Positions 37,648 to 42,846 of a DNA stretch of 44,247 bases are shown here, in pieces. The translations under genes were made by a program, and so were the position numbers. The notes beneath the pieces were generated by a model. It worked only from the letters and a program-made list of their open reading frames with translations, ran no database searches and was not told where the DNA came from. Position 1 is the stretch's first letter, and each line of letters begins with the position of its first letter. Source of the DNA: Methanoculleus thermophilus. GTDB lineage: Archaea > Halobacteriota > Methanomicrobia > Methanomicrobiales > Methanoculleaceae. The DNA lies in NCBI RefSeq assembly GCF_001571405.1, contig NZ_BCNX01000014.1, positions 1 to 44,247 on the forward strand, given 5' to 3'.

Positions 37648-38973
37648 GTGAAAAAAGTGGGCATGAGCAAACACGATGCAAACGCTCTAATCCTCCTTGG
37701 AATTGCCGTATGCACCGGATCCCTCCTCATGGTGCCGGCCATTGCCAGTCCTGTGCAGGGGCTCACGGCGCTGGAATCGGGGGTGTTGCTCCAGTCTCCG
37801 CTCAACAATATTCTATCAGATGAAGCGAAATTGGACTCTCCCGATCTCGAGGGCGAAGGAGATACCCCTGAAACGCTCCAGCCCCCGGCTCTTGCCGAGA
37901 CTCCTGACCCGCTTGATGATACGGAGCAGACGGAGCCTGCCGAACCGGAGTTCACCGGCCAGCCCGTTGATCCGACTCCCGCAACTGATGCGCCCATGAA
38001 CGGCCCTGCGGATGACGAACGTCTGGCAGAGATCATAGACAGCACGAGCATCTCCCTGGTGAGACTCTCAATGAAGCATGCACACGCTCTCTACCTGAAC
38101 GATACGGATGCTGCAGCAGAGGCAGCAGACGAACTGTACGCGCTCTCCAGCAGGGTGCTTGCGGAGGTTCAGATGCTTGAGGTCTCCCCTGACCGTGCGC
38201 CCGTCAGGGATGAGTTCGTCCGGTCACTCCTGGCCTACTCATCTGCGGGCAAGACACTTGCCAATGCAACGGATACCGGGACCGCGGAGTCTGTTCGGGC
38301 AGCCTTCAGGGATCTGGAGATCGCATCGGATGGCCTTGAGGTGGTCAGTCAACAGACCTTCGCTGTGCGGTCGGCGAGCACCGGTCTTTCCACGATGAGA
38401 ACCGCCACCCTGGCAGCAGAGACGCCCGCCGCCTGGACCAGTTCGGCCGATCTGGTATCGGTCACGCCCCCGGAGGAGGTGCTGGCCCTTGGTGAGCGCT
38501 ACACCTACGACGATCCTGCTGGCGAGAATATGATCTCGCTGATCGCGGAGTCCACCCGGGATGCATCGGCGTACGAGGAAGTCTCGGCCAACACGTCTCC
38601 GACGCGAATCGAGGCCGGTGATGGGCGCACGTTCCTCCTTGTTGCCCTAAAGTCAACAAACCTCGGGCATAAAGGCGACTCCGATCTCTATACCATTGAG
38701 ACCCCAGGACGCGACGCGTTCACCCTTGAGGGTCAGGGATTGGCGTTCAAGCCTCTTGAGGTCCCGTCCTTCACATCCCTTGGTGAATCGTTCGACAGAA
38801 AGCTCCTTGAGCGCTACGAATCCCTGAAAGGTTACCTCTACTTCGATGTTCCTGCTGACTTTGACGTCACCAGCGCGACGCTTCGAGTGGATCTCGGGGA
38901 TGCCGGCACTCCTGCTTGGGATCTCGGAAGAGATTTCGCAAAAGAGTCCGGCGGCGATGCGGTTTCTGTGTAA
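37648..38973 (+). CDS. Secreted or lipid-anchored protein of unknown function
   Basis: 441 residues. Starts with a signal peptide (hydrophobic ALILLGIAVCTGSLLMVPAIA, about 13-33), then an acidic Pro/Glu/Asp/Thr-rich linker (about 55-125), a helical region (about 126-225), and a C-terminal beta domain (about 265-425: FLLVALKSTNLGHKGDSDLYTI) resembling the DUF4352 immunoglobulin-like fold. GTG at 37648 is given as the start; ATG at 37663 is equally possible because TATATATAA (37632-37640) is 27 bp before it. An upstream AAATATAATAA suits the GTG. I do not recognise the helical part. Confidence 0.7.
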   Translation: MKKVGMSKHDANALILLGIAVCTGSLLMVPAIASPVQGLTALESGVLLQSPLNNILSDEAKLDSPDLEGEGDTPETLQPPALAETPDPLDDTEQTEPAEPEFTGQPVDPTPATDAPMNGPADDERLAEIIDSTSISLVRLSMKHAHALYLNDTDAAAEAADELYALSSRVLAEVQMLEVSPDRAPVRDEFVRSLLAYSSAGKTLANATDTGTAESVRAAFRDLEIASDGLEVVSQQTFAVRSASTGLSTMRTATLAAETPAAWTSSADLVSVTPPEEVLALGERYTYDDPAGENMISLIAESTRDASAYEEVSANTSPTRIEAGDGRTFLLVALKSTNLGHKGDSDLYTIETPGRDAFTLEGQGLAFKPLEVPSFTSLGESFDRKLLERYESLKGYLYFDVPADFDVTSATLRVDLGDAGTPAWDLGRDFAKESGGDAVSV

Positions 38974-39493: not shown

Positions 39494-39785
39494 ATTATGC
39501 ACTCCTGGCTGCAGTCACGATATAACTGACTGTGTGCCCCGCGGATTCCACCTGCCGGACAATCAGAGGTGCGCTCCCACCCTCCTGCCATAGATATTCC
39601 AGCCGTTCTATCCTCTAATTTTCTCGATTCTTGCTGATTATCCGTTTTTCTCACCGTAAAAATTTTATTCAACCATTTTCTGATACTGAAATAGAACTCG
39701 CACTCCCGTGGATGATTCGAATTTTAGGCGCGGATCAGGCCCGATTCACCGGGAGGCGGAGATGATGATTTTGTGGAGTTGCAGT

Positions 39786-39971
39786 ATGTGGGCGTATGTC
39801 AAGCGCTTTGATGGCAAAACAGAAGAGCGAGAGTTCCCTGCAGGGGTAAATATCGAGATCGGTGATATTCTTGAGGACGGCTCGGTCGTCATCGATGTTT
39901 CATACCCGGATGAGGCCGACGACTATACGGATTCATACGATCTCGATCCACTGGAGGCCTATGACGACTGA
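39786..39971 (+). CDS. Small acidic protein, unrecognised
   Basis: A 61-residue protein (MWAYVKRFDGKTEEREFP...) ending in a very acidic stretch rich in Asp, Tyr and Ser (DEADDYTDSYDLDPLEAYDD). It looks like a small beta-strand protein with a flexible acidic tail. GGAG lies 8 bases before this ATG. In-frame ATGs at 39762 and 39765 follow another purine-rich site (GGGAGGCGGAG) and would add 7-8 residues, so the start is open. No family is recognised. It is convergent with the USP-GNAT gene. Confidence 0.65.
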   Translation: MWAYVKRFDGKTEEREFPAGVNIEIGDILEDGSVVIDVSYPDEADDYTDSYDLDPLEAYDD

Positions 39972-40010: not shown

Positions 40011-41246
40011 TTATCGTCGAAACGGACCGGCAAAGCGGCGCATCGGTTGAACGTTTGCTCCTTCCATATCTCCAATGGCAAACGCGAACCTGGACCGGAT
40101 GGTCGGAGGAAGGTCGCTTTCTGGTATCGATACAAATCCATATGTTGCGTAAAACTCAACGAGGTTCCGGACCGAGTGCATGTACAGGGTGTCATGCTGG
40201 CACGCCTCGACGAGCGCGTCCATCGCCCTTCGGGCATACCCTCTTCCCCGGAACCGGACCGGGGTGAAGACTCCGTCCACCTCGTAGCCGTCCGGGTGTC
40301 GGCGGCACCTGGCGACGGAGACGAGGGTGCCGTCCGCAAAGACCCCGAATATCCTATCAGTCTCCGGGTTGGCCTTTAACTGGTGGTAATCAATCCAGAT
40401 CTCCTCGGCGAGGGGGAACTCTTCGCTCCGCAGTTCTCTGGTTTCAATCTTTAAGAGGATCGGGATTGCCAGAACCAATATCGGTGACTTTACGCATTCT
40501 ACGACTGCGCTCGTGACGCTCCCGAGCGGTGCGCTTCCTGCTGCATCACGCTTTCCTATGCGCGGAATCACGACTACGGAGGCATCGATCTCGTCCGCTA
40601 CGGCACAGATGATCTGCGCCGGATTTCCGGTCCGAATCATTGGGCGAATTTCATCTCCCGCTGGTGCAAGGTCTCTTCGCAGGAGATCCAGTCTTTCGGC
40701 TGCCTCCTGCTCCGTTTCCTGGCGCCCGGGCTCGATGACATGCAGGAGTACGGCAGTCCCGTCTCCGGCGTGATCTTTTAAGACAGAACGAACCTCCGGT
40801 GCCGTTGGTTCAAGATCAGTCGGCACCAGCAGGCGCCAAAAGAGCGGCGCCGGTCTCTTCCCACCCGATTGCGGCACGATCAGGACGTGTGTCCGTGCTT
40901 TCCTGAGTACGGTGGCTGCGACGTTTCCGGAGAGGAGGTTCCGAAGCAGGCCGGGGTCACGGACCCCCATTGCTATCAGGCCGGCTCCCATCTCATCGGC
41001 TGCCCGGAGTACTCTCTCCGCGACATCCGTTCCGTCGTCCTCTGCGATCGAGATTGCTGCCGTGATGCCCTGCTGCTGCACTCTCTCTTGCATCCGGTAA
41101 AGTTGGTCCTCGTCAGGCTGGGGTCCGTCCGATCGCCGGGCGTGGAGGAGGACGACCTCACGGACGCCCGGGATCTCACCGACCCGCTCCGCCATGAGCA
41201 TCGAGGCGGCGGAGAGGTCTGTTGGGATGAGTACCTTTGTAAACAT
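40011..41246 (-). CDS. Fusion of two universal-stress domains and a GNAT acetyltransferase
   Basis: A 411-residue cytoplasmic protein. USP domain 1 (about 1-126) begins KVLIPTDLSAAS and has an ATP-type loop near GVRDPGLLRNLLSGN (94-108). USP domain 2 (about 135-262) starts RLLVPTDLEPTA and has GKRDAAGSAPLGS (231-243). GNAT domain (about 267-411) has the acetyl-CoA motif VDGVFTPVRFRGRGYA (323-338) and a following YMHSVRNLVEFYATYGF helix. In mycobacteria a separate acetyltransferase modifies a USP protein, which gives precedent for the pairing. The gene lies 10 bp after the sensor gene, so they form one operon. Confidence 0.85.
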   Translation of the reverse strand: MFTKVLIPTDLSAASMLMAERVGEIPGVREVVLLHARRSDGPQPDEDQLYRMQERVQQQGITAAISIAEDDGTDVAERVLRAADEMGAGLIAMGVRDPGLLRNLLSGNVAATVLRKARTHVLIVPQSGGKRPAPLFWRLLVPTDLEPTAPEVRSVLKDHAGDGTAVLLHVIEPGRQETEQEAAERLDLLRRDLAPAGDEIRPMIRTGNPAQIICAVADEIDASVVVIPRIGKRDAAGSAPLGSVTSAVVECVKSPILVLAIPILLKIETRELRSEEFPLAEEIWIDYHQLKANPETDRIFGVFADGTLVSVARCRRHPDGYEVDGVFTPVRFRGRGYARRAMDALVEACQHDTLYMHSVRNLVEFYATYGFVSIPESDLPPTIRSRFAFAIGDMEGANVQPMRRFAGPFRR

Positions 41247-41256
41247 GGCTCATACC

Positions 41257-42561
41257 TCACACAATCCGGTAGCCGTCCGGCGGCACGTGGATCACGAATC
41301 GTGCCCCCTCACCAGGCGTTCCGGTCTCCTGGATTGTCATGCCGGTGATGGCAAGGATCTCCCGGACAAGGAAGAGCCCCAGTCCGCCATCGGTTCCAAA
41401 GCCGTACGCAAATATCTTCTCCTTATCCGCTTCAGGAATTCCCACCCCGTCGTCCTCGATGTAGATAGAGAGACCATCCTCCTGGATCTGGTAGGTGATG
41501 ACGATCTGCGATACGGTCTTGCCGTGGCGGAAGGCATTCTCGATCAGGTTGGAGAAGACCTGATCGAGCTTGGGGTCGGCGAAGATTTCGAGCCGCTCCA
41601 CCCAGGAGCGGACCGAGATCCCGGGAAGGAGCAGGCATGAGACCACCTCCCGGATAACCCTCTGCAGCGGCTGCCACTCCGGCGGCCGGAGACCGAGGTC
41701 CTGGTAGTCGCGGGTGATCTCAGCGCGGCGCTGCACGAGCCGGGCATCCTCTTCCAGGCTGTTTATGTACTGGCGAACGGCGGGGTCGTCGAACTGCCGT
41801 GTTCCCTCGGCTATCCGCGAAAGAAGCCCAAAGACCGCTGCCATTAGATCGTTCCGGGTGAGGCGCCCAAGCATGTTCAGCCTGGCGTTCGCCTCACGAA
41901 GTGCATCCTCGGCGTTCTTCCGGGCGGTGATGTCGATGAGCGTGAGGACAAACCGTCCTCCCGGGAGCCTGCCGCCCGATACAAGCGCCCGAACTGCAGA
42001 CCCGTCGATGCGGCGGAGGGTTGTCTCATACCCGTATGCAGCCCCATCCCTGCGGATCTTTGCTACAAACTCGTCCCAGGTCTCGGGATCGTCGATGAAC
42101 CGGGTGATGGGCTCTCTAATCAGGCCGCGGATCGTGGAGCCGAGGAGGGTTGCTCCCACGTAGTTGACCTCCTCGATGCGCGTTCCGTCGTCCGGCGCGA
42201 TGATGAGTGTTCCTGCCTCTGAGTTGTCGAATATCCCGCGGTAGCGCTCCTCCTGCTCCCGGAGCCGGAATGAGAGGAGTGATACGACGGCACCGATAGC
42301 TACGTAAACTGCGGCTCGCGCAACAACCGAGACGATCTGCTCGGCTCCCCCCTCAAAGATGAGCAGGGCCGTTGCAAGATAACCCAGGCTCAGAGCAATC
42401 GAGAAGACGACGCCGTGTCGGGGATACCAGTATGCGGCAAGCACGATCGGGATATACATCAGGTGCGGGAAGATGGTCGTGATTCCGGCGGAAAGCCCGA
42501 CGATGTTCGCGGCAAAAGCGATGATGGTCGCTATCGCAAGCAGGAGGAGCGGGTATCCCGG
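41257..42561 (-). CDS. Membrane PAS sensor histidine-kinase-like protein; phospho-acceptor His replaced
   Basis: About 435 residues if the whole open frame is used. Four hydrophobic segments (including AIATIIAFAANIVGLSAGI and GVVFSIALSLGYLATALLIF) precede a PAS domain (about 105-215) and a kinase core. The H-box, which in methanogen kinases reads TRHDI, is TRNDL here: the His is Asn (AAC at 41851-41853). The ATPase N-box (NLIENAFRHGK), G1 (DDGVGIP) and G2 (GGLGLFL) look intact. The first standard start in frame is ATG at 42459, which cuts off the first membrane segments. The frame reaches 42561, then meets a TGA overlapping an out-of-frame ATG (42563-42565). The start is unresolved. Confidence 0.88.
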   Translation of the reverse strand, partial: PGYPLLLLAIATIIAFAANIVGLSAGITTIFPHLMYIPIVLAAYWYPRHGVVFSIALSLGYLATALLIFEGGAEQIVSVVARAAVYVAIGAVVSLLSFRLREQEERYRGIFDNSEAGTLIIAPDDGTRIEEVNYVGATLLGSTIRGLIREPITRFIDDPETWDEFVAKIRRDGAAYGYETTLRRIDGSAVRALVSGGRLPGGRFVLTLIDITARKNAEDALREANARLNMLGRLTRNDLMAAVFGLLSRIAEGTRQFDDPAVRQYINSLEEDARLVQRRAEITRDYQDLGLRPPEWQPLQRVIREVVSCLLLPGISVRSWVERLEIFADPKLDQVFSNLIENAFRHGKTVSQIVITYQIQEDGLSIYIEDDGVGIPEADKEKIFAYGFGTDGGLGLFLVREILAITGMTIQETGTPGEGARFVIHVPPDGYRIV

Positions 42562-42846
42562 TCATTCCTCCCCGCGAACTGGCGCAGTTGAATATTCAGG
42601 GTATCCGCCTCCTGTTGTCGATTTGGAGTGTAGGCGGCTTACCAATGGTCAGGAGAGGAGATACTTCTCTATAATACGCTCTCTGCATGATCCCTACTAG
42701 GCGCTTTGGTCTTGGGTGCTTAAAATAACTCTGATCGCAAGATCGGTCCGCCTGGTCCGGCATATCCCGCGTCTCTCTATCCCGCGTGGCACTGGGTTAT
42801 GAAAAGGCATATGCACACCGTTCTGCCATTACTCTTCTGGGAAACC

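Follow-up and report, generated by a model that had tools for sequence, protein, structure and literature searches.

A membrane PAS sensor that has lost its phosphoacceptor histidine is paired with a USP-USP-GNAT protein in Methanoculleus thermophilus: a putative sensor-acetyltransferase module of Methanomicrobiales

Methanomicrobiales is an order of hydrogenotrophic methanogens, and what many archaeal sensor kinases control is, to our knowledge, not known. A gene pair of Methanoculleus thermophilus raises the question of what a sensor built like a histidine kinase might control when its partner is an acetyltransferase. The window analysed here is a stretch of 44,247 nucleotides (contig NZ_BCNX01000014.1) and, as the first-pass annotation described, it contains a membrane PAS sensor gene followed 10 bp downstream by a fusion of two universal stress (USP) domains with a GNAT acetyltransferase, both on the minus strand and with no receiver domain between them. 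No response regulator adjoins the pair among the adjacent genes checked, though a partner encoded elsewhere in the genome is conceivable. The open frame of the sensor (41260..42561, minus strand) comprises a hydrophobic N-terminus, a PAS domain, a dimerisation helix lacking His and an HATPase_c domain; read from the first in-frame ATG it spans 41257-42459 and encodes 400 amino acids. The USP-USP-GNAT gene (40011..41246, minus strand) encodes 411 amino acids, and its GAGGT motif, resembling a ribosome binding site, overlaps the sensor stop codon (GTGTGAGGTATGAGCCATG), an overlap which suggests that the two genes are translationally coupled. A sigma-70 and terminator scan, the model of which excludes archaeal promoters, returned no more than chance.

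The sensor has Pfam matches to HATPase_c (PF02518, 71.4 bits) and PAS (PF13188 and PF13426), the latter preceded by hydrophobic N-terminal segments. The PAS domain (PAS_8/PAS_9; 41923..42249, minus strand) covers residues 71-179 of the ATG-started frame, and the ATP-binding HATPase_c domain (41278..41571, minus strand) has intact N, G1, F and G2 boxes, as in canonical histidine kinases. The phosphoacceptor histidine is missing: the H-box reads LGRLTRNDLM (LGRLTRNDLMAAV) against TRHDL in relatives, with Asn203 (codon AAC, 41851..41853, minus strand) at the His position, and the His is absent from all Methanoculleus orthologues read. The term pseudokinase given to this protein at first pass is apt in one sense, that of the phosphoacceptor site. 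The first approximately 34 codons of the frame (up to 42561) are open without a normal start codon. Orthologues extend upstream in frame, and the window's first transmembrane segment lies open without a regular start. Against the orthologues used for comparison, the window is one base short near 42548 (apparent deletion within 42540..42570, minus strand; CCCGCTCC versus CCCGGCTCC), so that the upstream frame does not join. The missing base would be either a sequencing error or a real lesion, in which case ATG 42459 would be left as the start.

The GNAT domain (ACETYLTRANSFERASE; 40014..40454, minus strand) is identified by Pfam (PF00583, 35.6 bits, above cut-off), by fold and by phylogeny. The first-pass annotation had made its proposal depend on acetyl-CoA-binding residues in a structural model, and these are present. 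Motif A, R333-GR-G336-Y-A338 (40233..40250, minus strand), follows the superfamily pattern (R/Q)xxGx(G/A) as R333xxG336xA338, its R and G being 100% conserved in 105 homologues; Glu322, Asp324, Tyr366, R298, R313, P380, R386, G392, M402 and R404 are 97-100% conserved. Glu322 lies with Asp324 in a conserved EVDGV strand (40269..40283, minus strand) and Tyr366 in an FYxxYGF helix (40134..40154, minus strand); from general knowledge of the GNAT family, we take Glu322 to be the candidate general base and Tyr366 the candidate general acid. The GNAT is also the most constrained part of the protein (dN/dS 0.09). An AlphaFold2 model of USP-USP-GNAT is confident (mean pLDDT 87.7), and in it residues 265-408 adopt a GNAT fold (144 residues aligned to 9cr5_B, Z 15.1, rmsd 2.8; Z 14.7 to human GCN5, with GCN5, PCAF and RimI all near 14). 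The predicted acetyl-CoA site is intact.

The nearest folds span protein acetyltransferases and small-molecule enzymes and do not decide the substrate. An output in which the sensor controls acetylation of small molecules such as osmolytes or amines, rather than of proteins, is conceivable, if unlikely: GNATs are functionally diverse and the nearest folds include serotonin N-acetyltransferase, but GCN5/PCAF and RimI are among the high-ranked ones, and an archaeal GNAT with a USP neighbour, Pat2 of Haloferax volcanii, is the lysine acetyltransferase of glycerol kinase (PMC12607858), though neither point is decisive on the substrate. Pat2 is the closest archaeal enzyme; it has a P-loop and a catalytic Glu, and its gene adjoins a USP gene, the overlapping uspA hvo_1820 (PMC12607858). 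Unlike the window pair, it is single-domain and no kinase-like sensor is reported with it. Archaeal acetyltransferases are described as typically single-domain, and their regulation as an open question (PMC12607858).

Wherever a Methanoculleus locus is assembled with sufficient flanking sequence, the sensor lies directly upstream of USP-USP-GNAT, with 67-80% identity between orthologues of both proteins and the sensor matched over its whole frame. The entire neighbourhood (NadE, sensor, USP-USP-GNAT, an 87 amino acid protein and a phosphoesterase) is syntenic across the genus; conservation within Methanoculleus was therefore rejected as proof of a functional pair, and evidence has to come from other families and from fusions. 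The pair is retained in another family (L060), where the surrounding genes are absent. Within the family, a single strong sensor orthologue (E <= 1e-90) was found in every genome that gave a match, and the genomes lacking it are incomplete assemblies or belong to other genera; nearly every near-complete Methanoculleus genome examined has the sensor. Two further window proteins, of 441 (37648-38973, plus strand) and 87 amino acids (39708-39971, plus strand), are without a Pfam match and are syntenic near the pair in nearly all Methanoculleus.

Searching the whole USP-USP-GNAT protein against 199 genomes of Methanomicrobiales gave two types of match. The first consists of solitary USP-USP-GNATs (approximately 45% identity), which are mostly sensor-free and for which no conserved neighbour was found. 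In the second, only the GNAT domain matches (60-69% identity), as part of frames that are longer or shorter. The longer frames, of approximately 610-650 amino acids, consist of a full-length homologue of the window sensor with the GNAT fused to its C-terminal end, and such fusions occur in many genomes of several genera. The shorter frames, found in further genomes, are GNAT genes of 150-190 amino acids directly downstream of a sensor, usually with a His-containing kinase upstream of the pair. A second unit, of the fused form, is present in the window's own genome (L147:4362-6230 on contig C8, 622 amino acids). The pairing that the first-pass annotation proposed to seek in other Methanomicrobiales is thus conserved in relatives, to the point of fusion, and its reading of sensor and acetyltransferase as one unit is supported by this linkage and by the acetyl-CoA motif of the GNAT. 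Sensor-free USP-USP-GNATs are numerous, and a further paralogue of the GNAT also occurs without a sensor, so the GNAT enzyme can work alone, which counts against a module. Outside the order, no fusion of a histidine kinase with a GNAT was listed at E <= 1e-50 among the three candidates scored per genome in 393 genomes of the phylum, and a GNAT profile run against 391 phylum genomes reached only distant GNATs, with best matches at E ~1e-9 to 1e-10 (best 1.4e-10).

Several other arrangements of these families were observed. At L147:4362-9798 (G000:C8, ~207.4-212.8 kb), three genes stand in a row, encoding a CheA-like protein, a His-containing receiver-kinase and the sensor-GNAT fusion, placing an acetyltransferase within a chemosensory-type cluster. 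A small GNAT of the same family lies beside a membrane protein resembling, by eye, a polysaccharide flippase, with no sensor, at L249:5340-5849 and L250:5348-5827. One genome has several copies or fragments of the family GNAT in tandem within 6 kb (L113; G175:C16). In one genus (f6 genus g10, L187-L190), runs of several sensors form operons ending with a GNAT of 350-390 amino acids, the N-terminal ~200 residues of which have no Pfam match; the H-box of the linked sensor reads RHG instead of RHD.

In a tree of the sensors from which the H-box column had been left out, the 59 non-redundant sensors linked to a GNAT all fall in one clade (SH-aLRT 97), and support for it was 99 in a quick tree after addition of the eight closest unlinked sensors, all of which have the His and lie outside. 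No unlinked member was found inside the clade. In an independent search with the window sensor, its best matches in the 199 genomes (E <= 4e-73) are all GNAT-linked except two, both outside the clade. In the GNAT tree, the sensor-linked domains form three main sub-clades (USP-paired, fused and small-gene), among which six solitary USP-USP-GNATs are placed. Together, the single sensor clade and the GNAT sub-clades indicate that sensor and GNAT have been together since a single origin. The history of the module would then include several fissions or fusions, with the USP part gained or lost.

The phosphoacceptor His is absent from 48 of the 59 linked sensors and from 3 of 55 unlinked ones, the other 52 having it. 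Since linkage arose once, these counts are not independent, and a Fisher value of 1e-17 for linkage against His loss was rejected as independent evidence because it rests on one independent contrast only. Assuming no regain, approximately eight losses occurred inside the linked clade and two outside (p 0.017 in a binomial test by branch length, on a quick tree). In the USP-paired forms, including the Methanoculleus orthologues, the His has given way to N, S, D or R, in the fused clade to D or E, and in the small-gene forms to T, Y, L or N; one further genus that pairs its sensor with USP-USP-GNAT has Q, R or H at this position. Eleven linked sensors, mostly of the three-gene form with a His-containing kinase upstream, retain the His, so that phosphotransfer is still open to those members. 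In the fused clade, 21 of 22 sensors have a His immediately following the lost position. This residue might serve as a displaced acceptor, but the geometry of the helix should point it in another direction. Two Methanoculleus species (L126, G000:C9:84202; L226, G063:C3:55001) have another, distant family of sensors that lacks the phosphoacceptor His (LYLDLLGTDIYNT), with no GNAT in these short loci.

Among the His-less members of the linked clade, the N box is kept in 44 of 48, the G1 Asp in 47 of 48 and the G1 and G2 glycines in all 48, and in Methanoculleus the kinase core is under purifying selection (median dN/dS 0.21). An ATP site fully conserved despite the loss of the His, next to a partner in cis or adjacent, would also suit a HATPase domain that is still a kinase acting on a partner, of the GHKL Ser/Thr type, and that phosphorylates the GNAT, the USP or a third protein directly. 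Kinases of this type, such as RsbW/SpoIIAB and PDK/BCKDK, are established. However, USP-paired forms retain the acidic residue that follows the H-box His, whereas the fused clade has changed it to His, and we regard such a kinase as improbable.

A rather doubtful alternative is that the His-less subunit belongs to an ordinary two-component network, where it dimerises with another kinase or a receiver or is read by one of these, the GNAT merely tuning that kinase or receiver. A His-containing receiver-kinase lies just upstream at L147 and at many other loci, and DivL (PMC4211667) and ChrS (PMC9491836) are precedents, but the window pair and the fused clade have no conserved kinase or receiver neighbour. 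DivL of Caulobacter is the nearest repurposed kinase, likewise a histidine-kinase fold without the phosphoacceptor His (Tyr550 instead) that has PAS domains and signals allosterically (PMC4211667). It binds a receiver, regulates another kinase and binds ATP weakly, whereas the window sensor has an acetyltransferase partner and well conserved ATP boxes. The sensor also shares its PAS and HATPase parts and the TRHD type of H-box with archaeal histidine kinases of the 2018 census of Galperin et al. (PMC5847659), the main text of which is silent on acetyltransferase, GNAT and Usp partners. The 'nonenzymatic' histidine kinase-like proteins of that census keep the His and lack the HATPase, the reverse of the window sensor.

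That the sensor is a drifting relic held in place by operon structure, the acetyltransferase alone mattering, is very unlikely: the varied residue at the His position (N, S, D, R, Q, T, Y, L or E), as after lost constraint, and the apparent one-base lesion near the start of the window copy would fit decay, but the core dN/dS of ~0.2, the near-invariant ATP boxes, the retention of the sensor by almost all near-complete Methanoculleus genomes examined and its in-frame fusion to a GNAT elsewhere do not. As read from these sequences, the pattern is one of selective loss of phosphate transfer with nucleotide binding kept, and not of general decay.

The two Usp domains of the window protein (PF00582, 88.6 bits over both) lie at 40866..41246 (USP1) and 40461..40835 (USP2), both on the minus strand, and residues 1-264 of the model match the tandem USP 3loq_B (Z 25.0, rmsd 2.8, 243 aligned). 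Neither has the G-2x-G-9x-G(S/T) motif of ATP-binding USPs. USP1, canonical in solitary relatives (GARGKG...LGSVS), is eroded to GVRD or GLRD...GN in Methanoculleus, the window having GVRD...GN (GVRDPGLLRNLLSGN); USP2 (PRIG...GS in the window, with LGSV) follows a non-canonical PRxGxxD...LGS pattern conserved in nearly all. The fold is thus common to the tandem USPs 3loq of Archaeoglobus, Rv2623 and UspE, from which the window protein differs by its C-terminal GNAT and, in Methanoculleus, by the altered USP1 motif. The USP part is under weaker constraint than the GNAT (dN/dS 0.33 versus 0.09) and is absent from the sensor-GNAT fusions and the small GNATs, that is, from most architectures of the linked clade. 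These observations do not support the suggestion at first pass that the sensor controls acetylation through nucleotide-binding USP domains. The absence of USPs from fused and small-gene units, with the altered motifs, argues that they are accessory, perhaps an adaptor or a second input.

On balance, we somewhat favour the view that the window pair is a member of a sensor-acetyltransferase module of Methanomicrobiales in which direct domain contact replaces His-Asp phosphotransfer. Either at the membrane or within the PAS domain, a membrane-bound PAS histidine-kinase scaffold would perceive a signal, and most of the sensors would have given up autophosphorylation at the canonical His. Instead, the dimerisation helices together with the ATP-binding domain would form a conformational switch that touches the GNAT, thrown by ATP binding or exchange. 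The GNAT would be reached in three forms: fused behind the sensor, encoded just downstream, or carried on a tandem-USP partner as in the window. Sensor contact may raise or lower the acetyl-CoA-dependent activity of the GNAT, the targets of which are probably proteins. We infer the contact itself, the direction of control, the ATP dependence and the protein substrate from these comparisons; in the structure model of a fusion (pTM 0.55) the relative domain positions are not fixed.

In function, the module most resembles the type III bacterial GNATs (the cAMP-GNATs MsPat and MtPat, and the ACT-GNAT AAPatA), in which a sensory domain allosterically controls a C-terminal GNAT (PMC8556138; PMC6434083). 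The domain order, with a putative N-terminal regulatory domain before the GNAT, fits this type, and allosteric control would be expected. Type III sensors are small, soluble and ligand-binding, whereas the module considered here has a membrane PAS/histidine-kinase scaffold with an ATP-binding domain. None of the five GNAT types in the available text of the review has a histidine-kinase scaffold, and the term 'histidine kinase' is missing from that text (PMC8556138). The remark made at first pass that a mycobacterial GNAT acetylates a USP is correct, MsPat being a cAMP-GNAT that does so according to the same text (PMC8556138), but the arrangement differs from that of the window pair. Our literature search of open-licence papers found no description of a histidine-kinase/GNAT module, and nothing on a Usp-GNAT system or on such a system under the taxon names.

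Whether this family represents a further output mode of histidine kinases, one where a GNAT is driven through direct contact with the dimerisation and ATP-binding domains and where evolution has repeatedly discarded the phosphate relay, seems to us evenly balanced. The natural series of members, with the His kept or lost, the GNAT adjacent or fused and USPs present or absent, is well suited to testing how histidine kinases are repurposed. If the proposal is true, the sensor-GNAT family would tie archaeal sensor output to acetyltransferase regulation through a membrane sensor hard-wired to an acetyltransferase, and would constitute a signal-to-acetylation pathway in methanogenic archaea.
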